From the NCBI RefSeq assembly GCF_029504735.1, contig NZ_JAQFIP010000022.1, forward strand, positions 1 through 34,207: a stretch of 34,207 nucleotides of DNA. Direction: 5' to 3'. Shown in pieces: positions 1 through 20,600 of the stretch. Source of the DNA: Ereboglobus sp. PH5-10. Lineage in GTDB: Bacteria; Verrucomicrobiota; Verrucomicrobiia; Opitutales; Opitutaceae. Positions within the stretch are counted from its first letter, which is position 1, and every line of letters starts with the position of its first letter. The notes beneath the pieces were generated by a model. It was not told where the DNA came from, searched no databases, and was given only the letters and a program-made list of their open reading frames with translations. The translations under genes and the position numbers were made by a program.

Positions 1-95
1 GGGCTCGCAGTTGCAAAATATCACCGACGCGGTCCATTGCATAGTGCAGGGGGGCGCATCCGGAACCAACAACATTGATGCCGATCCGCTTCTGC
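1..95 (+). repeat. Direct repeat copy A inside the giant gene
   Basis: Bases 1-95 are identical to 1426-1520, an offset of 1425 bp or 475 codons, so the reading frame is kept. The repeat may extend left of the window. It encodes the end of a beta-helix, with motifs such as QNITDAVHCIVQGG and NNIDADPLL. The two copies diverge immediately after base 95. Confidence 0.95.
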
Positions 96-3000: not shown

Positions 3001-6000
3001 CGGCATCGTGAGGATGTATAACAGTGTTTTGTCCAAGGTTTCCTCCAGCTTTATCTATGCGGGTTCGTCAATAACGATAAAGAACTGTCTTTTCTGGAAC
3101 CCTGCGGGGTATGGTCCCCAATCCTACAGTGCGGTAGGATCAAATGGGAATCTGTGGAGCGATCCTCTTTTCCATGCTGCCGAAAATGGCGATTTCACCC
3201 TGAAAATCGGCAGTCCGTGCATTGATGCAGGGGACGGCTCTGTGGCCCCTGAGCGTGATTTTTTTGGGCAAGAGCGGGTCGATGACATGTATGTGGAAAA
3301 TACGGGCACGCCGGCATCAAATGGGGCGTGCCCGGATATTGGCATTCACGAAATGAGCGCCAATGCGGTTTCGGATGTCGATTTGGCAGTGAGCAAAGTG
3401 GTCATCCCTGCGTCGGCAAATGTCGGGGATACGATTCAAATAAGATACACGGTTACCAATGTCGGCAGCCTGCCTGCGCGCGGCACCTGCCGCAACGAAA
3501 TCACGTTTGTCGGTAATTCCACCATGCCCAATAGAAGCGCGAACGCTATCAGCTCGACACTGAGCCTTGAGCCTAATGAGAGCGTCGAGTTGACCGCAAG
3601 TGTCACCGTGCCGAGCTTGGCGGAGGGCGACTGGCATTTGCAGATTCTACTGAACCCTGACAGGGCTATTTTTGAAGGACGCAATACTGACAACAATCTC
3701 TACACGACATCGGATGTGATACGCATCAGCATGGCGGCATTGGGTGGGACGACCACGGCCGTAATCAACGGCAACTCCAGCCAGACCTTCAGAGTCGAGG
3801 CCTCCGCCAGCGAAGCGGGCACAATCTTGATCTATGCGCCGGAAGGTTTGAACATCTATGGTGCCTTTGGCTATGTGCCGGGTGTCGGACAGAGCGACAT
3901 AAAGGCCGTTTATTGCGGCGATGGTGTTTACGCCATCACGGTGCCGCAGGGTGAAGGCAGCATGTATTTGACGGTCGAAAACCCAACCATTGCTGATAAA
4001 ACCATTCAGATAGAAAAACCTACTGCGGCACTGAGCATTCTTGGCGTGAGCACAAACACGCTTCCAAATACCGGGCAGGTGACACTTTCTCTATATGGCA
4101 CGGGATTTACAGCGTCCTCACTTGTGGAGTTTCGGAGTAACGGCCAAACGATTCTACCTAATCGCATCACTTGCATTTCGCCAGTGGAATTGTCCGTAAC
4201 GTTCGCCTTGGATAATGCGACAGCGGGCGACTATGATATTATAGTTAGCAACGGTTTCAGTCAGGTGACATTTGATAGGCCGATTCAAGTATTGCAGACC
4301 TCCGTGGGCCCAAAGCTCACGGTGACTCTCGAAGTGCCTTCGGGCATCCGCCCGGAGCGCTGGAGCATGCTTGTGGTCAATTACACCAATGAGGGTGACG
4401 CGGATGCCCACGCGCCAATTATCACCCTGTTTGGCGAGACGGAGGTGTTCTTGTCACCAGACAACGGAGTGGAAGAATTTGAGCATTCGATTCGTTTGTT
4501 TGGACTGGCCCAGGATGGCAACCCCTTGGTCATCGCGCCTGGAAAGAGTTATAGCATGCTTGTGCAGTTCAAAACCGCAAGCACGGGTTCGGCTGTGGTG
4601 ATTAGCAATTTGGTATATAATCATGGGAAAGATATTATTGCGTGGAGTGGTCTCTTTAATCTTGCGTCAAGCGAACCGGAAAAACTCCAGCGACTCTATG
4701 ACGCGTATGGCGCAGAGAACACAACCGGCTACTATGACGCCATTTTCGCGGATGTCCAAAAGTGCGCGGATATTGGCATTCGCCCAATTTGCGCGGAACA
4801 TTTCTTCCGCATAAAATCCCTATGCCTCCCCGAGTCTGAATACGCCATTGTGAAAGGAACACTGCTGCACCGGGACACGGGAGCGCCGGTGCCGGATGTT
4901 GTAATTCATGCTTGCACGGCAGAACAGTCATCCAGCGTAGCCGTCTCCAAGACAGATGCCAATGGGCGATTTTTCTTTTATGGGATTGGAAAAGGAACGC
5001 TCGTGTGCGCGAGCAACACCTTGGATGTCGAGGCCATTATTCCCATTAACGATAACATCACAGAACATGTGGAAGTTGATCGCGCTCTCTTGTTCTGCCA
5101 AAAGGAAGAGATCGAAGAGGCTGAGACAAGACAGGACTTGAGCTCTCTGCATCTTGTTGGCATAGGAGGTATGCAATTGTGCGTAGGGTTAAATAATGGG
5201 CTTTTGTTCGCGGCTGATATGTCCAAACTGGCGCAATACACTTACTATAAGTCAGAAAAAACATACTCATCCGTTGTTGTCCCTGATTCACAGGATAATC
5301 CGAATGAAATAGTTGTCTTCCTGCTTGATGGTGGTGGCAAAAAGATATCGAAAGCCACTCTTCAAATAACCGCGCACGGGGATTTTCAGTGGGTAGATTA
5401 TAAAGAGCATATTGAAAATTTTGATTATGATAAAATTGTGTTAATTTCTGATGAAATAGGAAACTACACCGGGGTTGCTCTTGATTTAGAAGCTGGTTCG
5501 GGTTCATCGTTGAGATATTACAAATTAAATAAAAATGAATTCATTGATATTCCGATTATATTAATGGATTCCACGTTTGCATCAACTTTTTCCATGCCTC
5601 CTATTAAGACAAATTTCACCATACCGTTTGCAGTTGGTGATATAAAAGTGTCAATCGAGATTACGGGTGATCAGGAAACCGAGGAAAAGTGTTGCGATTG
5701 GTTGCAGTCATCTGGGTTCAAGGGGACGGGGGCGTTGCAAATGAAATCATGGACAAAAATTGTTACTGGAGCCGCGATCAGCACTGGGGTGGATATTAGT
5801 GGAAAGTGGGATCGCAAATATACGTGCCAATTGAATGCGCAGGCAAATAAATGCAATCATGCACCTATAAGATTGCTCTCAGAAGAAAGAGCGCTTGGAG
5901 GTTTTGTTTGGGTAGACCTCACCAGGTCTGTTCCTTTGCCTCTAAATCTAGGAAAGCTTTCTGGAAAAATCCGGGCGAAAATTGGTTATAATAATAAATT

Positions 6001-9000
6001 ATTAACTATAAATGGAAGTGAGACAACAAAACACGAGGCAAGTATGGAGTTTTCTTTGGTCGGTCAAGTCGCAGCTCAGGCGGCGCTTACGAATGCTCTC
6101 AAAGATGCGCTTGAACCCGAAGATGCTGCATATATAAAAGAATTTACGATAGGGATCACCGCCGCTAGCGCCAGAGCTGATGTTGGTGTTTACTATGATT
6201 CAACGAAAGGAATAAGAGGTATAAGAGAGGAGCTCTCATATAAGGTAGAAGTGACTAAAGTGTTTAAATGGGAAGGTATGCTAACTGAAGATTCCTCCAC
6301 GCTACTTAAGCCTAAATTCACTTGGGATCCTGATATTCAGAAATATTTCGACTCCAAATCTAACAAGAGCTCGATGTCGATGAGCAAAGCCGTCAATTAC
6401 CTACTGCCTGAAACGACGCTTTTGTCCGCGATGTCTCCGTTGGATGACATATCTGTAGACCTATCACACAATACTGTGTTTGCGCCAGGGCAACTACAGG
6501 ACGGTTATCCGTTAAACAATGAATTCCCATGTTTAATTGGGACACAAGATGGAAACACACTAGCATGGATTCGGCAGGTCGTGTCTGACGGCTTGAGTAT
6601 GGGGAAATTGCTAGTTGGCGACATTCGGAATGATCAAATTGAGGGTTTGCGGGAATTATCCCAAGGGGATGTCAATGTGACCGGCTTGTCCATGCTCGCC
6701 ATCAATGATAGTGATCTTCTTGTTGTTTGGGCGCAGGCGGAGCCATTGCGGGATTCCGAGAACGCGTTCAGGCGATCAATCTCCCGTTTTGACACAAGAT
6801 TATATTATGCAGTGCGCAGTTCGGGAGCTTGGTCTTCACCCAGAAGAGTTACCAATGCTGACGTCGTGGAGACCAGACCTAAGCTGGGATTCGATTCACT
6901 GAAAAACGTCCCTGTTGTTGTGTGGATGGGTATGAATGATTCTGGTGAGCATACAATTATGTCGGCGTCCTACAATGCCGATATATGGCAACCCCCCAAT
7001 GCGGTTTTATCGACTATAAATAATATCGAGGCTATAGAAATTTCCTCTTGGCGTAAAAATGACACGCCCGCCCAGTTGCTGGTGTCTCTCTGGCAGGGGA
7101 GTGACAACCAGGTTGTGAGGAGTGGTGTATTAGGGGCATCTGGATGGGCAATGGACACATTCACCATTCCGGTGATGCCTGTTACTGCTTCCAGCGAAAC
7201 CGAACAAGCCACAATTACTTCCTATGCATCTTTAGCAATGTCTCAAAATCCCATCTTTTCGATGGCTTCAGCCCCCTCCGATGGCTGCAAGGAGGATTGC
7301 CGTTGTGGATGCGGACTGGTTTATTTTTGCGGCTGTCCTGTGGCAACATGTCCATGCAAGGGAGAATGCAAGGGCGATGGTATAAGCTGCTGCGATTGTG
7401 TTGATAAAAATGGCATTCCTATTCATCGTTCAAATGACCCCAACGAAATGACAGGCCCAGCAGGAGCTGGAGAACAGCGCTATGTGATTCCCGGCGAATG
7501 GCTCGATTTTAAGGTGTATTTTGAAAACATGGCCACTGCTACGGCGGCTGCACAGGAGGTGCATGTCAACAATGCGCTCAGCCAGTATTTGGACTGGAGT
7601 TCGTTTGAATTTGCCGAGGTTTCGTTTGCCAACCAGATCGAGATGGGGCTGCGCGGTTTGAAGAGCGGACAGATCGAGGTCGCGCAAAAGGGCACCAGCA
7701 CCAAGGTGCGCGTGGAGGCTTCGTATAATGAAAGCACCGGAAAGGTTTATTGGTATATGCGGTCGGTTGATCCTTCCACCGTCGACAAGTGGCCGCTTGA
7801 TCCTTATGCGGGCTTCCTGTTGCCGAACGACGAAACGGGGCGCGGCGAGGGTTACGTGGCTTATCGCGCGAAGGTGAAGGCCGACGCGCCACATAATGCG
7901 CGTATCGACAGCAGCGCGGATATTATATTTGATTACAACGAGGTGATCGTCACCGATCCGGCTTGGTTCAATACCGTGTATGCCGAGGGGTTGACTGCTC
8001 CGGAAATCACCACGCCGCCATCCGACGCTACAAAGGCGCTTGGAGCTTCAGCGTCGTTTACCGTGGCCGCCACGGGTTATGAGCCGATGTCGTATCAGTG
8101 GTTTAAGGACGGTGTTGCGCTCGAAGGCCAAACATCTGCGACGCTCACGTTGTCGAGCGTGCTGGCTGACGACGCGGGCCTTTACACGGTCGCGGTGACA
8201 AACATCTTCAAGTCGGTCACGAGCGAGCCGGCTTCGTTGACTGTTTTGACTCCGCCCGAGATTGCTTGGGCACCCAACGCCGGCAGCCAGACCGTGCAGG
8301 ATGGCGCGACGGCGACGTTTGTCGTGGAAGTGACCGCCGGCAGCGCGCCGTTCACCTATGCGTGGTTCAAGGACAATGTGCTTATCGCGAGCGCTACCGC
8401 CGCCTCCTATACCACGCCCGCCGCGCTGCTCTCCGACAATGGCGCGGTTTATAAGGTCGAGGTTTCCAATGCCGCCGACACCGCATCGCTGAATGCCACG
8501 CTCACCGTCGTTGCGAGTCCGAAGACTATTGCGGATCAATATAAATCGCAAATCGAGGATCCGGGCACGGCAACGGTCACGATTTCGGGCACGGTTGATT
8601 TTTCGCTGGTTGGCGGAATCACGATTCCGTCCGGCAAAACCATTGAGGGTGCGGATGCCTCCTCAACGATTATCGGCGGCGTCACCATTCCGGCGGGCGC
8701 GAGCGGCAATGTCATTATCGGCATCAACTTCACCGAGGGCACGCTGACAATCAACGGTGCGAGTGATGTGGAGGTCACGCATTGCACGTTCACCGACACG
8801 CCCGTCACCATTACGGACGGTGCGGACAATATTTCCTTCTCGTGGAATGAATTCACCGCGACGGGCGGCGGCAGCGGCTCGGCGATGACCATTTCCAACG
8901 CAGGCGCGGGCACAGGCATCCTCCTGCACAATAATCTGTGGGGTGACGGGCTGAAATCCGACATGCCGGGCGTGACCAATGCGCGCGTTTACATGTATAA

Positions 9001-9994
9001 CAACTACTTCACCGCAACGGGCAACACCACCGCAACCGTTGCCGGAGCGGGCGCGCAAATCCTCTCGGTCAACAACATCTACGAAGGCACCCACAACCCG
9101 CTCACCACGCAGTCCACCGGGTTGCTGCACGCGTCGGGCAACAGCATGATTTCGACCACCGGCACGACCGAGCCGGGCAATGACGAGGTGTTTGTCCCCT
9201 CGTATTCGCACATCATCAACCCCGCCGACACCGTCACGAAAGCCTCAATCGCGGCGAATGCGGGCAACACTGCGGGTAAAAACTCCAGCACGCCCGCGCA
9301 AATGAGCGGCACCGCCGGCATCAGCGCAACCGTGACCGGCTCCGGCGCGAGCAAGACCAATGTCAGCGCCCATGTGCCCGCGATGGGAGGCTTTACTCTC
9401 GCATCAACTGCGACCGGCTTTGCGCCCGCTGCGCGGCAGTGGTATCTCGACAACTTTGCCATCGCCGGCGCGACTTCCGGCTCCTACGCCGTTATCAACG
9501 CAAACGCCGCCGCGCACGCCGGCACCTATGCCGTGGCATTGACGGCCGGCACGGGAGAAATCGTGACCTCCGGCGCGTTCACGGTGACGGTGGGCGCGCT
9601 CGCGCCGCCAGTCATCACGTCGAATCCCGTGTCGAAAACAATCAATGTCGGCGGCAGCGCGACTTTCACAGTTGTCGCCACCGGCGAGAGCTTGTCTTAC
9701 CAATGGAGGAAAGGCGGATCGAGCATTGCCGGCGCCACCGGCGCCTCCCACGCAATCACCAACGCGCAGCAATCGCACGCGGGCAACTACAGCGTGCTCG
9801 TGATGAATCCGTCGGGCACAGTCACCAGCAGCGCCGCCACGCTAACGGTGACCACCACCAGCGGCACCGGCGGCAACAACGGCGGAAACAACAATTCCGG
9901 CGGCGGTGGAGGCGGCGGCGCGGTAAGCCTCTGGTGGCTGGCCGCGCTCGCAGCATTGGCGGTTGGGCGCCTCATCGGACGGAGGACTCCATAA
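2..9994 (+). CDS. Giant secreted mosaic surface protein (5'-truncated by window edge)
   Basis: The frame is open from base 2, so the N-terminus and signal peptide lie outside the window. The TTG at 11 is internal, because the same codons recur at 1436 inside the protein. Residue numbers here count from that TTG. Domain order: end of a beta-helix (1-85, ending in a PTIGAYE motif); Ig-like (about 90-175); DUF1565/pectin-lyase-like beta-helix (179-562); Ig-like (about 563-656); second beta-helix (658-1115); CARDB-like (1121-1240); IPT/TIG-like (1341-1430); carboxypeptidase-regulatory-like (1614-1670); an AT-rich unrecognised part; a BNR/propeller-like stretch (about 2170-2410); a 12-Cys cluster (2426-2463); a module starting DPNEMTGP (2476-2660); two Ig domains (2663-2835); pectate-lyase-like helix (2836-3090); two more Ig domains; Gly-rich linker; hydrophobic segment (3304-3322); Arg-Arg tail. 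The tail resembles GlyGly-CTERM/PEP-CTERM sorting signals. A role in adhesion or polysaccharide binding at the cell surface is inferred. No catalytic site was identified. Confidence 0.9.
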   Translation, partial: GSQLQNITDAVHCIVQGGASGTNNIDADPLLLPIGESMGHLVAMLSAGSPAIGSGQSQAEAAVGITIPQADGRGMPRPEHPTIGAYEWTSSSMIISSQPQVNMDVAPNGAAVTISSTVSNAVRYEWYFKNDGMFNYRLLNETQTSEWNIIAGPGSYGWYRMVAYDAQGNQLAAEPVLVRSPRVYVSTTGSDENDGSSWATAVASVQHAIENCFGNEVWVASGTYVPMGRPNGGSETDNRQRHFSLRNNVSVYGGFAGTETALGERDLLANETILSGDFNGNDVYDPVSGALKSGSSENAYYVFYHPQPMGVQLNNTAVLGNVTIRGGSPSSSLSSGGGMRNLNRASPRLVNCVFTGNLHAGLYNGSWSSPEVIGCAFNGNAGAAGVYDKDDASPVLDGCTFYRNSGNGLQHGYSGTATVVNSTFYRNGGHGVYVHWNTNAVVINCTSTENEGGGIVLDTTSGPMKVINSIVWGNKGSQLQNITDAVHCIVQGGASGTNNIDADPLLREFENYGGVVSIIPVAFGSCAVEAGINQAELGDSVVLPTVDARGVDRTAFSRPTIGAYEPQAIIPSGQPLIMPILGTGAYTIGSDYTLNVVWSETRAEMGFVFKWYKDGLLVPIETSSRLSEQAFRLGTSDYRVEITLDDKSWSAEYTVTIYPSVIYVSGTGDDANDGTSPVTAKRSLDKILANLPYGGNFTINVLGDSSVYAVNDLYTLTSGVTLNIEDGAIIKFADGAGLNVEGGATLNIGKAVLTHLADDTIGGDTNEDGNRSVPSHNQYTITGSGQISISADCDFRFKTFEYGGTLSVDQIWIGNRVYRITSDVVVPNGVSLTILEGAILKFDQSKRITVQAGGSLYVAGARNNNVIFTSIKDDVHGGDTNGDGISTIPSMGDWRSLLISGHADFRHCKLLFGGNTNSGGWSGAEGGVITYLNGSTGVVDSCLISDGKFDGVSSYSPSLLVENTTVFYCDRAIQVLGGQADLVNCVFYGMTGNHGVLAHGGIVRMYNSVLSKVSSSFIYAGSSITIKNCLFWNPAGYGPQSYSAVGSNGNLWSDPLFHAAENGDFTLKIGSPCIDAGDGSVAPERDFFGQERVDDMYVENTGTPASNGACPDIGIHEMSANAVSDVDLAVSKVVIPASANVGDTIQIRYTVTNVGSLPARGTCRNEITFVGNSTMPNRSANAISSTLSLEPNESVELTASVTVPSLAEGDWHLQILLNPDRAIFEGRNTDNNLYTTSDVIRISMAALGGTTTAVINGNSSQTFRVEASASEAGTILIYAPEGLNIYGAFGYVPGVGQSDIKAVYCGDGVYAITVPQGEGSMYLTVENPTIADKTIQIEKPTAALSILGVSTNTLPNTGQVTLSLYGTGFTASSLVEFRSNGQTILPNRITCISPVELSVTFALDNATAGDYDIIVSNGFSQVTFDRPIQVLQTSVGPKLTVTLEVPSGIRPERWSMLVVNYTNEGDADAHAPIITLFGETEVFLSPDNGVEEFEHSIRLFGLAQDGNPLVIAPGKSYSMLVQFKTASTGSAVVISNLVYNHGKDIIAWSGLFNLASSEPEKLQRLYDAYGAENTTGYYDAIFADVQKCADIGIRPICAEHFFRIKSLCLPESEYAIVKGTLLHRDTGAPVPDVVIHACTAEQSSSVAVSKTDANGRFFFYGIGKGTLVCASNTLDVEAIIPINDNITEHVEVDRALLFCQKEEIEEAETRQDLSSLHLVGIGGMQLCVGLNNGLLFAADMSKLAQYTYYKSEKTYSSVVVPDSQDNPNEIVVFLLDGGGKKISKATLQITAHGDFQWVDYKEHIENFDYDKIVLISDEIGNYTGVALDLEAGSGSSLRYYKLNKNEFIDIPIILMDSTFASTFSMPPIKTNFTIPFAVGDIKVSIEITGDQETEEKCCDWLQSSGFKGTGALQMKSWTKIVTGAAISTGVDISGKWDRKYTCQLNAQANKCNHAPIRLLSEERALGGFVWVDLTRSVPLPLNLGKLSGKIRAKIGYNNKLLTINGSETTKHEASMEFSLVGQVAAQAALTNALKDALEPEDAAYIKEFTIGITAASARADVGVYYDSTKGIRGIREELSYKVEVTKVFKWEGMLTEDSSTLLKPKFTWDPDIQKYFDSKSNKSSMSMSKAVNYLLPETTLLSAMSPLDDISVDLSHNTVFAPGQLQDGYPLNNEFPCLIGTQDGNTLAWIRQVVSDGLSMGKLLVGDIRNDQIEGLRELSQGDVNVTGLSMLAINDSDLLVVWAQAEPLRDSENAFRRSISRFDTRLYYAVRSSGAWSSPRRVTNADVVETRPKLGFDSLKNVPVVVWMGMNDSGEHTIMSASYNADIWQPPNAVLSTINNIEAIEISSWRKNDTPAQLLVSLWQGSDNQVVRSGVLGASGWAMDTFTIPVMPVTASSETEQATITSYASLAMSQNPIFSMASAPSDGCKEDCRCGCGLVYFCGCPVATCPCKGECKGDGISCCDCVDKNGIPIHRSNDPNEMTGPAGAGEQRYVIPGEWLDFKVYFENMATATAAAQEVHVNNALSQYLDWSSFEFAEVSFANQIEMGLRGLKSGQIEVAQKGTSTKVRVEASYNESTGKVYWYMRSVDPSTVDKWPLDPYAGFLLPNDETGRGEGYVAYRAKVKADAPHNARIDSSADIIFDYNEVIVTDPAWFNTVYAEGLTAPEITTPPSDATKALGASASFTVAATGYEPMSYQWFKDGVALEGQTSATLTLSSVLADDAGLYTVAVTNIFKSVTSEPASLTVLTPPEIAWAPNAGSQTVQDGATATFVVEVTAGSAPFTYAWFKDNVLIASATAASYTTPAALLSDNGAVYKVEVSNAADTASLNATLTVVASPKTIADQYKSQIEDPGTATVTISGTVDFSLVGGITIPSGKTIEGADASSTIIGGVTIPAGASGNVIIGINFTEGTLTINGASDVEVTHCTFTDTPVTITDGADNISFSWNEFTATGGGSGSAMTISNAGAGTGILLHNNLWGDGLKSDMPGVTNARVYMYNNYFTATGNTTATVAGAGAQILSVNNIYEGTHNPLTTQSTGLLHASGNSMISTTGTTEPGNDEVFVPSYSHIINPADTVTKASIAANAGNTAGKNSSTPAQMSGTAGISATVTGSGASKTNVSAHVPAMGGFTLASTATGFAPAARQWYLDNFAIAGATSGSYAVINANAAAHAGTYAVALTAGTGEIVTSGAFTVTVGALAPPVITSNPVSKTINVGGSATFTVVATGESLSYQWRKGGSSIAGATGASHAITNAQQSHAGNYSVLVMNPSGTVTSSAATLTVTTTSGTGGNNGGNNNSGGGGGGGAVSLWWLAALAALAVGRLIGRRTP
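1426..1520 (+). repeat. Direct repeat copy B inside the giant gene
   Basis: This is an exact copy of bases 1-95 in the same frame. After 1520 the two copies code for different sequence (LLLPIGES versus LLREFENY). That pattern fits a recent tandem duplication of a beta-helix module or gene conversion confined to this block. Confidence 0.95.
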
Positions 9995-10044
9995 CAATAC
10001 CCTCCGCCACTCCTTTTTCGCCGGGTGATTTTTGCTATGACTTT

Positions 10045-10063
10045 GCGGCGGTTTTTACGCCGC
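10045..10063 (+). terminator. Possible terminator of the giant gene
   Basis: A hairpin with arms GCGGCG and CGCCGC and a 7-base loop lies about 50 bases after the stop codon. It has no immediate T tract; a T-rich run follows only about 16 bases later. This is a weak candidate. Confidence 0.3.
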
Positions 10064-10226
10064 GAGTCTTCCGCTTGCTTTTTTGGAAACTTTTCCGCGC
10101 CAACTGATCGCAACGCCATTCGGTGGGCGGTGATACGAAAACCGTGAAAACATGCGGTGGCAGTAGGGCAAAAGCAGGTGTGTCGCAAAAAAATGAAAAA
10201 TATTTTCAGGGGGAAAAGTGACCCCC

Positions 10227-10253
10227 AATATGTTAGGATAACATAAACATATT
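10227..10253. promoter_or_regulatory. Nested palindromes, operator- or iteron-like
   Basis: The core ATGTTAGGATAACAT is a perfect inverted repeat with a 3-base centre. It is nested inside a wider pair, AATATGTT and AACATATT. Such nested palindromes are typical of repressor or initiator binding sites. The binding protein is not known. Confidence 0.4.
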
Positions 10254-10413
10254 ACTACCGTTTTTTAGTGCCAGGTTCATGCATCGTCAACATCAAAATA
10301 CACTTTCGCGCATTGACAAAACGCCATTTTTATAAATGGTCCCGCTCCGTCAGCGGTTCTTTATACATTCTTCGTTAACTCAAAACCAACCAAGTCCCTC
10401 TATTATTTCCAAA

Positions 10414-10436
10414 GCATGAATTTTTCAAATTCATGC
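10414..10436. repeat. Perfect inverted repeat (10-bp arms)
   Basis: The arms GCATGAATTT and AAATTCATGC are separated by TTC. This is the longest perfect hairpin in the upstream region. No T tract follows, so it is not an ordinary intrinsic terminator. Confidence 0.6.
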
Positions 10437-10733
10437 CATGACGCTCGGAGTAACCTCTCGATGCGCGTCATTGCAGGCTGAACCCCCTCGGGCCTGCTGA
10501 GACACCACATAATAACATCGCCACGTAATGCCGGGTCGGCACGCATGCGGATGAATATATATCCATAAACTGGATACGTTATTACATCTTCACGTGCGCT
10601 TAACCGTCACAAGGCAACGCTATGTCTCCATATATTTTTACACTTTAACGATACATAATTCGTTGAACTACAAGCGCGGACTGCAAACGCAAACAACCTA
10701 AACAAACCAACAACCATTAGAAAGTTAGAATAA

Positions 10734-12431
10734 ATGACAGAAGCAAAACACACCACGCCAAAAACCATAACCACAAATCGAAAAGAAACAAACATGACAG
10801 AAGCCACACCCATGCATAAAAACACCGATGTCCATAACGGTGCGCCTGCGAGCTCATTGCTCATCAATAAAAATGGCTTGTTAGCAATTGATAAAATCCT
10901 CGAGTTCATCGCGGAAAGCAATTTCACACCCATAGAAAAGTCCATGGCGCGTGACTTTCTCTTGGCACCAAACATGATATCTAAAGCCCTCAAAAACTAT
11001 GAGGATTGCGGCGTTTCGGGAGAGGATGAGCTTAAACTCCTTTCATTTTTTGTTATTACTTCCCGCAAGCTGGATCGCCCGCTCGCGCTCATAACGCAAG
11101 CGCCAGCAGGCACCGGTAAGTCGACCGTTCAGGATGTGACACTTCAATTCGTCCCCGATAATGAGCTCGTCAAGCTTACAACGGCGTCGGCGGAGTCGTT
11201 CTATTACATCGATGGCGGACTTGAACACAAAGTCCTTGCTTTCGAGGAGCTTGCCGGTGTCAACAAGGTTGCGCATCCGCTCCGGGTTCTACAATCCGCC
11301 GGCGTCCTCACGAAGGCGGTGACAATCACGAAAGGCAGTGACCGGCGCATGCGTGTTTATGAAGTGCACGGCCCGGTGACAATCATGGTCACGACCACTG
11401 CCGTTGATGTAGAGAGAGAGCTCCTCAGCAGATGTATGATCGTTCACACGGACGAGAGTTACGCGCACACGAAACGCATCATGGAGCTGCAGCGTCTGAA
11501 CGGAACCATCGAGGGCCTTGAACGTGCCGAACGCAAAAAGCAGATTGTGCGAATCCAGCAATTGGTGCAGTCGATGCTCCTCCCGCTCAAGGTGATGAAT
11601 CCATTCGCGAATGACATGACCTTCCCCGTGGAAGGCGCCAACGCACGACGCGACCACGACAAATACCTCACCCTCATTTACGCCATCGCGCTTTTGCATC
11701 AATTCCAGCGGCCGATAATGATGCACACAATCGCAAGGAAAACCATCCCTTATATAAACATTACTATCGACGACATTGAACAGGCAAATCACCTGATGGG
11801 GCATTTCTTCGGAAGGAGCGTGGGCGATCTCTCACCCGGACCGCAGGCACTCCTCACGAAGCTGGTTGGTATGCTCGAAACGAAATGCGCGGAGGAAGGG
11901 GTCTCCCAAGAATTCCGCCGCTTCACGCTCGACGAATATCGCGCCTTCACGCAGTCGGCGGCGTCGCAAAGTCGGAAGCACCTCAACACGCTTGTGGCCT
12001 CAGGCTATGTGGAAGAATTTCGCGGCAAAAACGGCACACCCTTTGAATATATTCTTTTATATAAGCCAACTTTGGATGCCAAAAAGCCCTTCGTGGCGGG
12101 TCTCGTGGATGTCGAAACCTTGCGCAAAAAATACGCTGCCTCCACGCCCGAATCTGCCAGTGTGACGGCGGCAAATGCAGCCTCGGTTAAAACCAAAGCA
12201 AATGGCGGAGAGGCCATGCCGCATCCGCATACGGACGACACCTCCACGCCCAAACCGACGAACACTGCGCCGGCCGCGCCGCACACCAACGGTAAGGCCG
12301 CCTCAAAAAGCGAATTGCAAACAACGCCAACCCCCAAAAGGCGCAGAAGCAAAAACATTAATGATAAGAGCCAGGCCGATTTCGGACTGTTTTTCGGCGA
12401 CGCACCCGGTGGCCTTTTCGACCAAACCTGA
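10734..12431 (+). CDS. Primase-associated P-loop ATPase, mobile-element type
   Basis: This 565-residue protein carries a P-loop, PAGTGKST (Walker A, residues 124-131), followed by VQD. An acidic motif AFEELAG (169-175) serves as the likely Walker B. TTTAVDVERELLSRC (220-234) and HTDESYAHT follow. An RRDHDKYLTLIYAIALLHQ block and a C-terminal winged-helix-like part come next. This motif set matches the ATPase half of long CHC2 zinc-finger primases found on bacterial integrative elements, where the usual P-loop is SSAAGKSTLQD-like. The N-terminal CHC2/TOPRIM primase half is absent, because only about 100 unrelated residues precede the P-loop. The tail (about 480-565) is Pro/Thr/Ala-rich and then basic. 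Two start codons 60 bases apart (10734, 10794) share ATGACAGAAGC, and neither has a clear ribosome site. A role in replication of an integrated element is inferred. Confidence 0.8.
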   Translation: MTEAKHTTPKTITTNRKETNMTEATPMHKNTDVHNGAPASSLLINKNGLLAIDKILEFIAESNFTPIEKSMARDFLLAPNMISKALKNYEDCGVSGEDELKLLSFFVITSRKLDRPLALITQAPAGTGKSTVQDVTLQFVPDNELVKLTTASAESFYYIDGGLEHKVLAFEELAGVNKVAHPLRVLQSAGVLTKAVTITKGSDRRMRVYEVHGPVTIMVTTTAVDVERELLSRCMIVHTDESYAHTKRIMELQRLNGTIEGLERAERKKQIVRIQQLVQSMLLPLKVMNPFANDMTFPVEGANARRDHDKYLTLIYAIALLHQFQRPIMMHTIARKTIPYINITIDDIEQANHLMGHFFGRSVGDLSPGPQALLTKLVGMLETKCAEEGVSQEFRRFTLDEYRAFTQSAASQSRKHLNTLVASGYVEEFRGKNGTPFEYILLYKPTLDAKKPFVAGLVDVETLRKKYAASTPESASVTAANAASVKTKANGGEAMPHPHTDDTSTPKPTNTAPAAPHTNGKAASKSELQTTPTPKRRRSKNINDKSQADFGLFFGDAPGGLFDQT

Positions 12432-12447
12432 GCCAAAGTGCGCCCGC

Positions 12448-12484
12448 AATGCCCCCGAAGCCTCGCGCTTCGGGGCATTTTTTT
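12448..12484 (+). terminator. Intrinsic terminator of the primase-like ATPase gene
   Basis: The stem is ATGCCCCCGAAGC against GCTTCGGGGCAT, with one bulged C. The right arm is followed by seven T. It starts 17 bases after the stop codon and faces the end of the convergent Fic gene. Confidence 0.93.
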
Positions 12485-12518
12485 GTCCATTCAAAATTGC
12501 CCCGGAACCCGCCCGCCC

Positions 12519-14003
12519 TCAGTCAAGAATCGTCGGCAGGCCGAATGGAGCGGCGTGTTCGTCGAGCGCCTTGGTGCCGCGGAAATATTCGTGGGTTTTT
12601 TCAAACGACTCGAATGGCATGCGGCTGTTTAGCTCAATGAGCTTGTGGCCAAACGCGATGAAGGGCTCGGCGTCGCTTCGCAACGTGAGCGCCTCCAGCA
12701 CCGTCAAATAATCGCTGCGGAAAGAAGTGGGGATGATCAGGCGCATTCGGCCCGCCGCCTCCAGCTCCGCATTCATGCCAAGGCGCGAGATGCGTCCGTT
12801 GCCATCGTTGAAGGGATGCACCTCCGCCATGAGAAACAGCACGTAAAGCGCCCTCGCGACCGGCGACGGCAACGCGCGTCCCAGCGTCCATCCGCGCGCG
12901 AGTGTTTCAACAACGAGCTCCGGCGCGACAAACACCCGCGAACCAAATTCGTTGTTTCGCGTTTTCAGGACACCCGGTTCGACCGACGCCCTGCCGGCCA
13001 TCATGCGGGCATGGCGTCGTTTTATGAGGTCGATCAACTCGGACGGGCTTTCCGGCACCGCTGCGCTGATATTGGGATCGGTGGCAAGCCGATAGGTTTC
13101 GCGCACATCGTGAGCGTCCTCGGGACGCGCGCTTTGCAGGCGCCCGGCCGCCGCGCCGGCGTAAACAATTGATTGCGCTTCTTCGACGGTGAATTTTGTG
13201 CCCTCGATGAAGTTCGAGAAATACGCCTCCCAAAAGGCCCGGTTGTCGAACTCCGGGGCCGGGGGCGCCGGCAGCTCCTTGAATGCTTCCGCCGCGAGGC
13301 GCGCGTGAAGGTTGCGGAAAAGAATGTCCCGCTCGGGGTCGTAAGGTTTTCCGTGGGCGCGCGAACGCGAAAGGTCGCTTGTGAGCCGGTAGGCGGAACG
13401 CCGCCCCAGCAATGCGTCGGCCAGATTTTGAAATTCCCGCTGTTCATTTTGCCAGCCAAGCCGCTCCGCCAGTCCGGCTGTGCGCGTTCGCATCTGTTCA
13501 AGCCAGACCGTGCCGAAGATGCGAATCTGGCGGTCAATCCAGTGCTCAAGTTCGGATTTCGAGAGGATTTTTGGTTCATCCCCGGCGCGCGCGCGCGCAA
13601 TCTGCATGTTCTCCAAAAGCGCGCGCGGCTGGCTTGCAGTGAATAGCTTTTCGCTGTCACCAAATACCACCGGAATGTCGTCGGGTTGCGCCGCCGGGCC
13701 TCGCCAAAGCCGGATTTCCAAACCGGGCAACTTGCGCACGGGAGCCACCGCGTCCGGCACGCTTATATGAAGTTTGCCCGCGGGTGACAGTTTGTTGTCG
13801 ATTGCAGAGCGATGGCTGATCACCGCGCCCGGATAAAAATGCGCGATAATCTCCAGGCGGTGCCGCTGCACGATAGTTTCGACAGGCGAGGTCATGTCGT
13901 CCGTGTAAATCTTCGTGGCAATTTTTCGCAGTTTTCCGTATGCGACTGCACGGGCGATTTTACTGGAGCGGATTGGATTGGATGAGCCGAAAGTCAGGGA
14001 CAT
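12519..14003 (-). CDS. Fic family protein with AbiEi-like winged-helix N-terminus
   Basis: From the chosen start the protein is 494 residues. The Fic active-site motif HPFNDGNGR is at 396-404. A flap-like segment (about 343-361) precedes it. The inhibitory motif SNFIEG (263-268), of form (S/T)xxxE(G/N), lies upstream. Fic enzymes transfer AMP or a related group from a nucleotide to a target hydroxyl, and the inhibitory Glu blocks ATP binding until released. The first 120 or so residues (KIARAVAYGKLRKIATKIYT, then AVISHRSAI) resemble the winged-helix domain of AbiEi-type antitoxins, suggesting DNA binding and autoregulation. The frame is open to 14090. Start 14003 is preferred because the domain begins there and a promoter candidate lies just upstream. 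No ribosome site is seen. The gene lies beside the Avs-like gene on the same strand, so a toxin or phage-defence role is inferred. Confidence 0.93.
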   Translation of the reverse strand: MSLTFGSSNPIRSSKIARAVAYGKLRKIATKIYTDDMTSPVETIVQRHRLEIIAHFYPGAVISHRSAIDNKLSPAGKLHISVPDAVAPVRKLPGLEIRLWRGPAAQPDDIPVVFGDSEKLFTASQPRALLENMQIARARAGDEPKILSKSELEHWIDRQIRIFGTVWLEQMRTRTAGLAERLGWQNEQREFQNLADALLGRRSAYRLTSDLSRSRAHGKPYDPERDILFRNLHARLAAEAFKELPAPPAPEFDNRAFWEAYFSNFIEGTKFTVEEAQSIVYAGAAAGRLQSARPEDAHDVRETYRLATDPNISAAVPESPSELIDLIKRRHARMMAGRASVEPGVLKTRNNEFGSRVFVAPELVVETLARGWTLGRALPSPVARALYVLFLMAEVHPFNDGNGRISRLGMNAELEAAGRMRLIIPTSFRSDYLTVLEALTLRSDAEPFIAFGHKLIELNSRMPFESFEKTHEYFRGTKALDEHAAPFGLPTILD

Positions 14004-14049
14004 AAATTTTCTATAGTTGGAGCATTGAAACAGACATGGCATGTCAAAT

Positions 14050-14078
14050 TTCATATAAATAAAAGACAGATGTGCCAA
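14050..14078 (-). promoter_or_regulatory. Candidate sigma-70-like promoter of the Fic gene
   Basis: On the minus strand TTGGCA (14073-14078) and TATGAA (14050-14055) are 17 bases apart. Transcription would begin near 14043 and leave a leader of about 40 bases before the ATG at 14003. That disfavours the longer reading frame starting at 14090. Confidence 0.4.
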
Positions 14079-14106
14079 TTTTAACAACAATAAACTGCTG
14101 ATCGAG

Positions 14107-14120
14107 AGGACATTTGTCCT
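14107..14120. promoter_or_regulatory. Palindrome upstream of the Fic gene, possible operator
   Basis: AGGACATTTGTCCT is a perfect inverted repeat (6-bp arms, TT centre) about 30 bases upstream of the candidate -35 box. It would suit a dimeric winged-helix autoregulator such as the N-terminal part of the Fic protein. This is inference only. Confidence 0.35.
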
Positions 14121-14623
14121 GAAGGCGGAGGCAATAAATTTCGGAAATAGTCGTCGATATCATCGAAAAAGAAAAATTTAAGATGATTAGGAGTTAGGTG
14201 CGCAAACTTTCATTATATTTGAGCAATCATGACGTTCACCGCCACGTCTATGCTTCGGTGCACTCAACCTCAACAGGGTGCCAAGCGGCGAACAAGCCGG
14301 GCGGCATCCGCCCCGGAAACCGGTGCCGAAACGCCCCCCCCGAAACGGGAGGCGAAACCGAGGCCGACCTCGAGGATTCCGACCTGCGGACTGGTTCAGC
14401 TCCGTTCAGCTCACGTTTCTAAGCAGCAGCTTGCCTTTGCAAGGGAACTGGAAAAATCCTCATCGACCTGCACGCTATTCATGCCAGCTTCGGTGTAGCT
14501 TTGTCTTCGACAAAGCCGTAAAAGACGACAAGGTTTTTATGTTGGATTAACCTTTTTCAACGATGCAGGTATCAAAAGTTTGTTTGTAGCACACGGCGAG
14601 GAGGCGCGAACGGGGGCCGATCT
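14121..14623. other. Intergenic region between the Fic and Avs-like genes
   Basis: No gene recognised. Short open frames on the plus strand (14198-14422, 14229-14498, 14278-14550) overlap one another, have no ribosome site and resemble nothing known. A perfect hairpin, GCTTTGTC/GACAAAGC with loop TTC, lies at 14498-14516, downstream of the minus-strand Avs-like gene. A sharp GC-rich patch (14230-14400) sits in otherwise AT-richer DNA. Confidence 0.5.
14498..14516. repeat. Perfect hairpin downstream of the Avs-like gene
   Basis: The arms GCTTTGTC and GACAAAGC (8 bp) flank a 3-base loop, about 110 bases past the Avs-like stop codon. It lacks a T tract on either strand. It may stabilise an mRNA 3' end or be a weak terminator. 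Confidence 0.5.
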
Positions 14624-17600
14624 TTAGGCTGTGTGTTTGGCGATTAACTGCTCTGTATTTTCGGCTTGGAGCAAAGTTACTTCAAATGCCTGCAATTTGG
14701 TTTCCGAAAGAATTTGTTCAAAGATGTCAGGTCGCATCATCAACGCACCACCCGATAGCCGGGGCGTTTCGTCTGCGAATCCATGGTCGCCCAAAGGGCG
14801 ACATCTCCACCAGCGAAAAGCCACCGCCAGTTTTTCGTCAGCATCGAAAAGATCGAGCGGGCCAATCTCCGGGCGTCCGGATAGATTCAGTGTGTTGGCC
14901 AGATTAGGAGCCAGGCCGAGCAGTTCGTGAAACTGGAACGGAGTTCCAAACAATGAGTGACCGGCGACTGCACCTGAAAAACCACCCAAGGGGAAGAGCG
15001 GTCGAGCCTTACGCCTCCAATCCCAGTTGTTTGATTCACGGAGAGGCAACATTCTCTGCGGCAGTGGCTCGATTTTGTCATTAAGCATCACCCCGGCTGT
15101 CACGCGTGTGCTCAACTTGATTTCATCGAAGCTGGATTCCTTCGCGAAATACGTCTCGAAATATGCAATCCGCTTCCAACCGGAAAGTTCGCCGTCCGGC
15201 ACAGATTGAACTGGATGCACGCCATTAGATATTGCCGCAGGAAGAGGCCACGACGGGCGAACGCGTCGGCTCCAGTAGTGACGGGCGGGAATCTCCGCAT
15301 GTGGCAGTAGCAAAGGCAACACTTCGAGCCAGACACGGTCGTCCCACTCGCCCTTCAGCCATAAGTGCTCTTCAAGTCCCGTCAGAACCTCGTTCAAGCT
15401 GTCTGTAAAGAGTTCATTTTCCCATCCATGAAACATTGCCCAAGGATAGCTCCTTCTCGAAATAGACATGCGCGCCTCACGACGGTCTTGCATCCTGTCC
15501 TTATGCAACTCATCGGAACGCATTATAGTTTCGAACCGCCCCGCCACGAGCTCCGGAAATTCCGGCCAAAATTTGGCGACCCGCTGCACGACATCATGAA
15601 CGTCAAGTGACATGATTGCTTTTATTTTATTTAATGGCAACGCGGTCGGCACTATCGGTTTCGTTCGCGCAGGTCTCCCGCTTACGGTGACCCTCGCGCG
15701 GGTTAAAAGCATCAACGCGAGTTGTTCGGTGCCGCAGCGTCCGGAGGCAATGAAGGCATTTAGCTCAGCGACGAGTGCCTGAGTGATGACGTAAGGTGTA
15801 GGCTCAAACTGCTCCAAGAGGTTTAGCAACCATAGTTGATGTGTGAAGCAAAGCGATGCCTTCAGTATCTCGCGGAAAGCAATGACGCATTTGGCAGGAT
15901 CACGCTGCACTAGCCACGCCGCGGCACAGAGTGCTGTGGTTTTGCGGCGAAGTTCCGGATGGGAAATGCGAGCCAGAATAAGAAATAGCGCGGCATCGTC
16001 GGGTGTCCACGTTGGCACCGCAGTCGGCTCGAATGAGAGGAAGGGGCCTTGCGCAGCCTCATGCCCGGGCAGGCGGACCAATATGGATTCGCACGCTTCA
16101 TCCCACATGGCAGTGGCAAGTGCGATATCGTCGTGGCGTCCGAGGAACCCGATGACGTGTTGCGTCACGCCCCACTCGCCATTGCGGTGCATCATTTCCT
16201 GCGCGAGGACGGTCAATGCAACGGGACGAGAATTTTTAAAAGCACGCATCAACAAATCTTCGTGGTTTTCGTCGCCAAACGACATCCACCCTCCGCCTCC
16301 GCGATGACCCGCAAATGCGAGCGTCAGCGCATGTGCAGCCAGTTCGGTCTTGCCAGCCGATTCCAGCGCCTTGCCAAGGCCCGTGAGCAAGTCGGCCCAA
16401 GTGCCGAATCGGTTCGAGCGGGCGATGAAGGTGAGGATTTCCTCAATCTCAGGGCGATGGCTGTCGGACCATCCGACCATCGGAACTTTACAATAGTCCA
16501 AGAGCGCCTCGTTGGAAACCTCACGCCCATGGAGAACTTTTTGGAAACGTTGAAGCAATGCCAGCGGAGTTTTGGGTGGCTGCCAACGGAGCTTTGGCGG
16601 GATCGAATCACTTGGCAGGGCTGGCGTGTTGTCCTTGTGCTTGGGGTGACTGATATCCGGATCGCCGACTGGAAGCACGAATCCGGATTTTTTGGCAAAG
16701 TGGAGGAGTGTGTCGTAGGCTTTTTGGGGGTGTTCCACGGGATCGCCATGCACAGTTGCAGCCATCAACTGAAACTCAAGGCCGGATGCTGCAGGGTTTT
16801 GGTTACGCAGTAAATCTATCCGGCCGAGGCGCCGTTTGACTTCTTCGACGTCGGATGGGCCTTCAACCAGCTGTTCCAATCGGCAGCGCCACCGCGTGTC
16901 CATCGTGCTGACGTTTTCGAGCCAGTGAACGAGGCCGTCTTCAAGCCGATAATCGTAACTCCCCCCGTCATCCGTCATTGAGCGCCCAAGCAGCCACGCC
17001 GCGGAGGACTCGTCCACCGCAAACAGCCTCTTGAACCACGTTCCAGCGGAATGCCTTGTTTCTCTCCCGTCCGTGTGAAGAATCACGGCATGAACCATGG
17101 GCAACAGCTTCGCAAGCCGTTCAAGCAACTGTGGCTTACCAGCACGCATAAGCCCCTCGATGCTGTTGAGTAGTTCGAAGATCGTGGTATCTTTGCGCAT
17201 CCCATAGGCGCAAAGATGGAGGCATGCGGTTTTCCAATGCTCCAGCGCGGCCACACGATCGCCCATCGTAATTAGAAGCGAGGCGAGCGCCATTTCGGCG
17301 GACGCTATTTCGTGGTAGAGTCCGCCATCGTGTTGGTTTCGAATGAGCGGTTCGATCTCGCGTCGAATCGACGCATGGAGCTCCTTGCGCCTCGCAAACG
17401 GTGCGACCAGTTCAACCAGGGCGTATGCAGTAAGTGGACCAGATTTCGAACGTTGAAGCGATGTTGTCGTGCCCGAGGAAATTTTCTTTAGATGCGCAAT
17501 AACGCAGCGCCATTGTTCGGAGGTCTGGAGGAGGTTGAGGGCGACTTCGAACGATTCGTGAATGGCGCCACGCCCGAAGTAAAGGTCGCAGGCGCGCGGT

Positions 17601-20600
17601 GAACCTTTGAATGGGTTGACATCCGTTGCCAATGCGCGGAACGCGTCAACGACTTCTTCGGCCGCATTCGCAGGCGAGTGGACGGCGCGGCGTTCGATCC
17701 GTGCGAGTTCGATGACGAATGCCAGCCAGTTCCGATACCAACCCGAACCTCGAGTTCGAATTTCCTCCGCATCGAGGAGCTTTGGCTGGACGTAGGCGGC
17801 GATCCGAACGCTGAGGACCCACTGCGGTAGCGCCTCGCCCTTGCCGATTCCCCGGCCTCCCACGCCGATCTCATATTTACCGAGGTCGTTCGTCCAATGC
17901 GTCAGGAGCTTTGGGTCAGCCCCGAGCCGTAGGGCTTCGATGGCGCGGTGGGCACTGGTGGTGCGGCGCGCGACGCGGGTGGCTGCAGCCTTGCGGTTCT
18001 GCGCATTCAACGTGCGCCGCGCGAATTCGAGGTCGAAGATTTCAGCGATGATTACATTGCATTTAGACTCTTTCGTTAGGTGCGGCAGGTCGTCGGCTCC
18101 CGCCACTTCTGCCCACCGGCGCGCGAGGCCAGCGACGTAGCCCGAATCAACGTCGTCGCCGGCTTTACCCAGGAATTCGACCAACCGAGCACGGAGGCGA
18201 TCACCCTCGCCCGTGCGCGCACGGCCATGGAAGCGAGCCATCTCTGCTCGCATGTCCTGCTGTTCCTCGGAGGGGCGCGGTTTGCGGAGGTAAGCATGCC
18301 ATGGTGGACTAACGCCGGCATCTGCGCAAAATGAGCAGAGCTTGAGGCCTTCCGAGACATCGAATGTCGGCGCACCGTCAAAGGATAGACGCTGCGCAAG
18401 GTTGTCGGCCCCGAAAATCGCGGCGTAGGTCGTGCCATATTCGTAAACATCGTTGAGATTATCGTTGCATGTTCCGAGCGCGCGAATGAGTTCACCGGCA
18501 CGAACCAGTTTAGGGAAGTCTTTAACGTCCGATGCGACGCGGGAATACACGCCCAAGTTTGCCGCGATCGCATCAGTGGGATGGCCCTCCGCCACAGCTT
18601 TCACGACGAAGTCGCGGTCAATTCGATCGAATACCTCGCAAGCTCGTTCGGCGCGGACAAGATTTGGCAGCAAAAACCTGAACGCCCGCGAATCGCTCAA
18701 GAAGCCTTTGCCATCCAGCCAAGCAATTACGTCTTTTAGGCTCGGGGCAAGGCCGTTCGCCTTGGTGGCGGCCGTTTCGAAAAGGTGCCGTCTAAAGCTT
18801 TCATGGTAGATACGCAGCCCGCCTTGTCCGCGTGTCCGCTCAAGAATCGGTGCGAGTTGTGTGAGGAATTCCTCGATGCGGCCACGGAAAAGAGGGAAAA
18901 TTTCCTGCAATTCCTCGGGCGTGATCCCAAAGTCGATCAGGCCCATGACCTCGCCCACCAACCGTCCGCCAGTATCCAAGCTGTCGAGCAAAAATTCGTA
19001 GTAAGTGGAGAGCTTGCCTTCATTTGCCGGAAGAACACGGAGAAGCGTCAATGGCTCCGCGCCAGGACTGGCCTCAAGCCGGCGTTCCAGCTCTCGGCAG
19101 AGGTAGGTGCAGTAAAGCGCATTCCCCTGTGAGCGCCGCGTTAATTCGGCAATGAGTGCGCTCCGATCGTCATCCCGACAACACTGTGCCTTTAATTTCT
19201 TGCCCAACGGAATCCGCCCGAGGAACGCTTCGACCTCTGGTTCTTCCCAATCCGGCACCGACAGGACTGTGCCCGAGCGGGCGAGTTGTGTGATGTGATC
19301 TCCAGGCTGAGAGCCGACAAGCACGCTGACATTCTCGGGAAGCTTCAGTGCCAACAAGTCTCGCGCGATCTGCGTATCCGCTGGGGCAAGCGTCCGCGCA
19401 TCGCGAAGCACCCGGGCGATGTGATCAAGGCCGTCAACGATCACAACCAGCCGTGGCGCGGGATTCATCGCACCTGCGGCATCGAGCAACGCCTGCAACT
19501 CTTGCGGTCCAGCGGCGTATCGCGTCGGATTGCGTTCGCTCAGCTCCGGCACCGCATCGACGATCTCGGCGATTAGGTTGCCGTAAAAGGTATTCAAGGT
19601 GATCCGACTTTGCACGAGCGGATCGCCGGGCTCGAGGTAGCAATAGTGCGCAGCGACGATTACTTTTCGTGCTCGCAGTTTTTTCATGAGATCGGTCAAT
19701 TCCCATGACTTGCCGGCACCAGGTTTTCCGGAGAGCACAGTGATCCCTCCTGCCTTAACTTTTTCGTTAAGTTTTCGCCGAAGTTCGGGCATCGAGACGA
19801 AGACGCCTGCATTGAACGGAAATTGCTGCGAGATCCGACCGTAGTCGGTAATCAATCCAAGCTCCGCTATGACCACATCCGGAGTCAAAGTCGAGCGAGC
19901 CAAGTCAGTTCCGCGGGTTTTGTAAGCAAGGAGGATGAGTTGCGCGGCAGCCTCGACCGGTCCTCGTTGCTGGTTTGGATAACGTCCGAAGCCAACGCGA
20001 TCCCCCAGCACGTTTAGCAGCAATTGCTCCATCGGACCGGCGTGGTCTAGATCGAGCGACGCCCGTGGGCATTCTAATTCGATGATCAGGCGTTTGGCGA
20101 ATGCCACAAAAGCGGCGCGCTTTGTGTTCTTCAGACACCTGAACTGGGGTTGCCCTCGCTTCGGCCAGATGACGTCAACATCAAGTTGAAAACAGGAACT
20201 CTGGCCTCCAAACGAACTTGGCGCGGTGGAATGTTTAAGAAGGCACCGGTCATCCTTTGCATTAGGAATGCGCCATGTGACGCAAACCCGATACTCCGTC
20301 GCGCGAACCTTTGCGGGATCAGATAGCCAGGACTTTATTAGTTGGTCGAGGCGAAGGTCGCAGGAATCGCTGGTAAGGAAAGACCGTTCAAATGCCTTCG
20401 GCGACTCGCTGTGTTTGAATTGTCGGCGAACTTTGGTTCCGTCATCCATTACGCTCAACAGATCGTCGAAACGGTCGTAGGCATGAAACTTCGCATCCAC
20501 TGTTGTAGATTGCACTCGCTCCACCAAGCTGCGTGCCAGAAAATAAGCGGTAACGATGTCTTGGTAAAAATACCCTTTATGAGCTGCTGCGAGATTGGCC

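Follow-up and report, generated by a model that had tools for sequence, protein, structure and literature searches.

A hairpin-rich non-coding stretch precedes the gene of a predicted MCM-type ATPase in Ereboglobus sp. PH5-10

Results

Organization of the locus

The window analyzed here is a stretch of 34,207 nucleotides of Ereboglobus sp. PH5-10 (contig NZ_JAQFIP010000022.1), in which a gap at 9995-10733 separates a giant surface-protein-like ORF (11-9994) carrying Ig, beta-helix and choice-of-anchor domains from a 565-aa ORF (10734-12431), termed P0001 (Table 1). Up to position 10111 the gap is common to the 3' flank of a paralogous surface-protein gene: the approximately 100 bases that follow the surface-protein gene (10010-10111) share 87% identity with the paralogue (C31:8721-8824, same genome), and this shared segment contains a 6-pair GC hairpin. 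The remaining block has a GC content of 37-52% in sliding windows, and its hairpin-rich part a GC content of 44% as compared to 60% over 400 kb of the genome. This low GC is only partly special, as the mean of 24 ordinary gaps of the host is 48%. The first 63 codons of the 565-aa ORF are also low in GC (42%, and 48% at third positions, as compared to 49-57% in the remaining codons), so that the block and the start of the gene may belong to a single DNA segment.

Table 1. Features of the gap and of the neighboring gene (window positions).
Feature	Coordinates	Strand	Basis or remark
Non-coding block without related DNA found	10112..10733		from the paralogue-shared 3' sequence to the helicase start codon
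Hairpin-rich non-coding stretch	10208..10576		stem counts, DNA fold
Stem GGGGG/CCCCC, 5 pairs, loop 8	10209..10226		perfect-stem scan
Palindrome TATGTTA-GGA-TAACATA, 7 pairs	10229..10245		operator-like by shape only
Stem, 6 pairs, loop 4	10324..10339		perfect-stem scan
Stem, 5 pairs, loop 5, then T-rich tail	10342..10356	+	weak terminator-like site
Perfect stem, 10 pairs, loop 3	10414..10436		perfect-stem scan and single RNA fold
Imperfect stem, long	10438..10471	+	RNA folding
Stem, 5 pairs, loop 3	10529..10541		perfect-stem scan
Stem, 6 pairs, loop 5	10560..10576		perfect-stem scan
A+C-rich stretch entering the ORF start	10675..10800	+	sequence, skew
P0001, 565-aa ORF, predicted MCM-type AAA+ ATPase	10734..12431	+	sequence relatives, AlphaFold model, fold search
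Duplicated block: 3' end of the ATPase gene, following bases, Fic gene	12046..14323		95.8% identity

The block 10112-10733 occurs once in its own genome, where the next match is 17 nt long (E 0.59); a REP-like or other repeated element was dropped as a candidate on this ground. A search of 251 other genomes of the family, in each of which two first-look candidates were scored, gave only a 34-nt and a 23-nt match, both taken as chance. Related DNA was likewise not detected in 56 other genomes among relatives (up to nine candidates scored), in plasmids and phages, or in 117 relative loci compared by short-word BLAST up to E = 1. The collection of homologues that an earlier note on this DNA had called for, as a basis for testing covariation in the stems, therefore yielded no homologous non-coding sequence in any set searched.

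Inventory of the hairpins and surplus over chance

The earlier note had singled out 10208-10576 as a non-coding stretch with at least nine inverted repeats, more than expected by chance. The five hairpins that it named are all present, and its count is fair if 10209-10226, 10529-10541, the imperfect stem 10438-10471 and an alternative pairing at 10227-10253 (8 pairs, loop 11), which overlaps the palindrome 10229-10245, are included. Only the hairpin given as 10230-10244 needed amendment: it exists, but its true extent is one base wider on each side (10229-10245). No ORF of at least 60 aa overlaps the stretch, which agrees with its description as non-coding. Eight pieces were also folded singly as RNA and two of them were not unusual; for 10475-10499, 82 of 200 shuffles folded equally well, and for 10324-10339, 24 of 200.

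Perfect stems with loops of 3-8 bases were counted in the stretch and in 300 dinucleotide shuffles of it. Seven stems of at least 5 pairs were found as compared to 2.1 in the shuffles, one of which reached seven; four stems of at least 6 pairs as compared to 0.51, with no shuffle reaching four; and two of at least 7 pairs as compared to 0.12, a value reached by 2 of the 300. Folded as single-stranded DNA, the stretch deviated from its shuffles with z -5.59 (none of 100 as good) and z -4.77 (none of 200) in two runs and with z -3.17 in a third run of 20 shuffles only. As RNA, none of 100 shuffles folded as well as the plus strand (z -2.63) or the minus strand (z -3.15). Shuffling of stem counts and fold energies thus upholds the claim of a surplus over chance.

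It is to be noted that the stretch was chosen by eye from a whole window read for oddities, and its surplus is less pronounced when measured against its own genome. Among AT-rich overlapping windows of 369 nt (about 416 kb of sequence), 18 of 658 have at least four stems of 6 pairs or more and 36 of 658 at least seven stems of 5 pairs or more, and with windows of any composition, also overlapping and with overlapping stems merged, the former count is reached by 111 of 10,620. DNA folding of AT-rich non-overlapping windows, with 25 shuffles each, gave z below -3.17 in 2 of 85 and below -4 in none; with windows of any composition and 10 shuffles each, z was below -3 in 10 of 180, below -4 in five and below -5 in four. 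The density of stems of at least 6 pairs is 10.8 per kb in the stretch and 3.3 per kb in the ordinary-gap control, which consists of 24 host gaps only (6,124 nt). The hairpin surplus is real as compared to shuffled sequence and moderate as compared to the genome itself, of which the stretch ranks in the top few percent, with other windows equal to it.

Searches for RNA families, repeats and control signals

The earlier note had raised the possibility of a replication origin or operator array, or of a large structured non-coding RNA, and proposed a search against Rfam. With the Rfam 15 covariance models, no family reached its gathering score anywhere in the window, and when matches up to E = 5 were allowed in 9900-10900, the sole one (E 4.1, 10026-10092) lay outside the hairpin stretch. 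No tandem repeats were detected in 9900-12600, no over-represented words of 6-9 bases in 10112-10733 or in 10208-10576, and no iterons or repeated short direct repeats near P0001. No sigma-70-type promoter was detected in 9950-10950, as compared to 2.0 in shuffles, and the two terminator-like sites of the same interval are no more than chance (1.5 in shuffles). A dif-like Xer site was considered and dropped, as TTATGTTAA, which we take to be the dif-like core, has five matches with at most one mismatch in the window for 3.1 expected.

The neighboring gene encodes a predicted MCM-type ATPase

P0001 had been described as a primase-like replication gene of a mobile element. Its attribution to a mobile-element family of replication-type ATPases can be retained; the protein corresponds, however, to the helicase half of such enzymes and contains no primase. 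Searches of P0001 against Pfam and NCBIfam gave no match, and neither did a sequence search of the PDB with A1; a single PHROG of unknown function was matched (E 4.3e-7), a second one reaching E 0.22 only. The AlphaFold model of P0001 has a mean pLDDT of 76.6, residues 1-44 and 477-565 being unreliable. When this model was compared with solved structures, MCM helicases ranked first (Z 22.7 over 281 residues, rmsd 3.3, 11% identity), and the MCM match obtained with Foldseek has an E value of 7.7e-9 and a TM-score of 0.38. The SaPI5 and PriRep1 chains are matched weakly in the fold search (7ola, E 3.4e-4; 7pds, E 9.9e-4). An unnamed protein heads the matches among predicted viral proteins (E 6.8e-22, 20% identity), and two named Sulfolobus virus proteins rank among the first five. 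On the basis of the predicted fold, we regard P0001 as the MCM-type helicase half of a primase-helicase.

The sequence of P0001 aligns with the C-terminal half of CHC2-TOPRIM-ATPase proteins at 31-40% identity, most alignments starting at about residues 60-70. In all three relatives scanned, the ATPase is preceded by CHC2 zinc finger and TOPRIM domains, and P0001 has no such half. A remnant of it was searched for in the gap with the N-terminal parts of 64 relatives, on which 30 residues of the ATPase half had been left: among the 960 rows obtained, the best 25 fall in the ATPase gene, 158 lie wholly in the gap, and the best gap match (E 0.025) is on the opposite strand and runs across a stop. 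Several homologous queries match at this one spot; a profile of the 64 N-terminal halves gave nothing better than E 8 in the window, and the putative remnant was rejected as chance. No XerC-type recombinase gene lies beside P0001 (best match in the window, E 5.1), two XerC/D-like frames being located elsewhere in the host genome, on contigs C1 and C2, and no HTH or other regulator gene was recognized adjoining it.

P0001 is strongly diverged. Alignment A2 comprises 60 of 79 relative loci, hand-picked to shorten the list. At 77 of 179 near-invariant positions P0001 differs from its family, whereas the next worst of 61 rows does so at 16%. It retains the invariant G128-K129 and R233, which we take to be the Walker A motif and the arginine finger, respectively. 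Since its 565-codon frame is open and the Walker A lysine and R233 are kept, the gene is not simply wreckage. The duplicated block that begins within its 3' part has a second copy at C11:103413-105689, where the cut-off 3' end of the helicase gene is accompanied by the Fic gene; an ORF fragment beside that copy resembles an ISL3-type transposase. The 129 codons shared by the two copies of the helicase gene differ at 16 residues, with dN 0.057 and dS 0.100 when the first four codons are left out, a ratio that would fit weak constraint in at least one copy.

Relatives of P0001 form a widespread family of CHC2-TOPRIM-MCM proteins

A first scan of genome contigs with P0001 alone detected no relative, and none was found in phages or, with P0001 and with A1, in viral contigs. 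With the host counted, relatives were present in 7 of 95 genomes in the first relatives search, in 20 of 387 genomes of the phylum and in 20 of 252 genomes of the family. They were also found in 28 plasmid records and at 79 genome loci, the latter among the best 80 of at least 538 confirmed candidates. Among these 79 loci of the best 80 candidates, the frame exceeds 900 aa in 64 and is shorter in 15, some of them truncated at the end of a contig. Of the 79 loci, 73 contain a XerC-type gene. Closed short frames occur at L076 (577 aa) and L103 (535 aa), so that P0001 is not the sole shortened frame of the group. In annotated plasmid records, members of the family are labelled 'CHC2 zinc finger domain-containing protein' or 'toprim domain-containing protein', and the recombinase 'XerC'. 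Of four annotated plasmid records, three show a divergent HTH gene ahead of the relative's gene and the fourth is not clear, which suggests that CHC2-TOPRIM-MCM genes may be under repressor control.

The fusion of a DnaG-type primase (CHC2, TOPRIM) to an MCM-type ATPase is widespread (L047-L125; plasmid loci L025-L027), and a search of open-licence papers returned none on this fused family. At the plasmid loci L025 and L026, the gene follows a large hemagglutinin gene that carries a repeated unit. ATPases that stand alone, about 400 aa long and with 31% identity to P0001, also exist (L126, 6707-7903; L127, 6038-7174; L128, 3080-4273); serine resolvase genes adjoin those of L126 and L127, and the sizes and order of the ORFs in L128 are similar.

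Upstream regions of the relatives

Of 82 relative loci, 60 had a long enough frame with 400 bases in front of it. In these 60 regions (400 upstream bases and the first 30 of the frame) we counted 82 stems of at least 6 pairs for 42.8 expected, or 3.2 per kb, which is close to the ordinary gaps of the host and far below 10208-10576. In a comparison over equal lengths, the 430 bases that precede the start codon of P0001 (10304-10733) contain three such stems, and 7 of the 60 relatives have at least three; the best-placed 430 bases that were tried (10147-10576) contain five, a number reached by one relative of the 60, L113. L113 has six stems in this region, and L058 and L071 have four each. These 60-locus counts indicate that hairpin richness is no general trait of the family and that single relatives equal it.

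Discussion

Interpretation of the hairpin-rich stretch

We tentatively favor, at somewhat less than even likelihood, an account in which the hairpins are separate DNA palindromes within a lineage-specific control and leader segment placed before an orphan, diverged helicase gene. Such a segment would terminate read-through coming from the surface-protein gene before it, present the operator-like palindrome 10229-10245 to a repressor, and provide the helicase mRNA with a leader ending in the unstructured A+C-rich start region. The gene behind it would be the helicase half of a mobile-element primase-helicase that may have lost its primase half and its recombinase; the promoter, operator, terminator and leader functions of the segment are likewise putative. 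This account is consistent with a hairpin surplus that is real and yet made of stems sharing no repeated unit, with the low GC of both the block and the 5' end of the gene, with the divergent HTH genes of the plasmid relatives, and with the long frames and XerC-type genes of most relatives, which have no counterpart beside P0001. It is weakened by the search for a sigma-70-type promoter in 9950-10950, which detected none, by terminator-like sites at chance level, by the lack of a recognized regulator gene alongside and by a low GC that ordinary gaps of the host partly share. The hairpin density, which exceeds that of ordinary gaps and the mean of the relatives, is also something that a plain control region need not show.

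Next in probability, but unlikely in our estimation, the stretch could be drifting intergenic DNA whose surplus is without function, an extreme case that came to notice through the reading of a whole window for oddities. In favor of drift, 18 of 658 AT-rich windows reach its count of stems with at least 6 pairs, z falls below -4 in 5 of 180 windows, and the three stems of 10304-10733 are equaled or exceeded in 7 of 60 relatives over the same length. The low GC of ordinary host gaps (48%), the departure of P0001 at 77 of 179 near-invariant positions (next worst, 16%) and the cut-off copy of the 3' end of its gene also speak for it. Against it, none of 300 shuffles reaches the observed number of stems of at least 6 pairs and none of 200 the DNA fold, and the 565-codon frame is open with R233 and the lysine of what we take to be Walker A in place. 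We consider it still less likely that the stretch is an origin or helicase-loading site of a former element, with hairpins forming in single-stranded DNA and P0001 binding or melting the stretch. In favor of an origin, the stretch has a high AT content for this genome, lies next to the gene of the predicted MCM-type ATPase (Z 22.7, 281 residues, rmsd 3.3), and shows its strongest deviation as single-stranded DNA (z -5.59 and -4.77); a repeat-bearing intergenic region beside cch2 is also the origin proposed for SCCmec (PMC7581432). However, iterons are lacking, the primase half and the recombinase are absent beside P0001, and the regions upstream of 60 relatives are on average far poorer in hairpins. 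The more specific proposal that a stand-alone MCM-type helicase, split from its DnaG-type primase, acts on the upstream hairpin array as an iteron-free loading site or origin appears highly improbable; if true, a helicase loading on hairpins without a primase would offer a small system for studying how MCM-type rings open DNA without a loader.

The least supported of the readings, and in our judgement a very unlikely one, is that either strand encodes a structured RNA, be it a non-coding RNA or a 5' leader with its own function. Both strands fold better than all 100 shuffles, and the stretch is non-coding and situated near defense-type genes, but the z values (-2.63 and -3.15) are modest, Rfam gave no match at threshold and none within the stretch up to E = 5, and no related sequence was found in the sets searched. 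We therefore rank the control and leader segment above drift, drift above an origin or loading site, and the latter above a structured RNA.

Comparison with known systems

P0001 resembles the CHC2-TOPRIM-ATPase systems with XerC in that it matches their C-terminal half (31-40% identity), and differs from them in lacking the CHC2/TOPRIM half, XerC and a recognized adjacent HTH gene. Its ATPase is also far more diverged and has a non-coding block of 0.6 kb in front. A parallel can be drawn with SCCmec cch2 and SaPI rep, for which the published account (PMC7581432) places the origins downstream of the helicase gene, the one proposed for SCCmec being an intergenic region beside cch2 with inverted and direct repeats. 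A helicase gene of a mobile element stands beside intergenic inverted repeats in both cases, whereas the stretch described here is upstream, contains no iterons and has no primase partner beside the gene. GOLLD and ROOL are large structured RNAs of mobile elements. The stretch shares with RNAs of this type a non-coding character and several stems, and differs in having no Rfam match and no conservation known here.

As it stands, the hairpins are of small consequence and amount to a single control region, or drifting gap, of which no relatives are known. The CHC2-TOPRIM-MCM family is the more useful observation, as it brings together a DnaG-type primase and a predicted MCM-type ATPase near a XerC-type recombinase, and would thus link a bacterial primase with a helicase fold that is known best in archaea and eukaryotes. 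According to one report (PMC5862659), MCM-family helicases in bacteria had previously been described in phages only, and MCM-like ones are reported there in integrative plasmids.

Other genes of the window

Three genes downstream of P0001 are of defense type: the product of 12519-14090 is a Fic protein (SoFic model, E 1.9e-13), that of 14624-20602 a 1992-aa AAA/NACHT protein with a weak match to Avs1b (4e-4), and that of 24991-25878 a GIY-YIG protein matching UzuA (8.9e-77). A third, partial Fic sequence is carried by contig C35 of the host genome.
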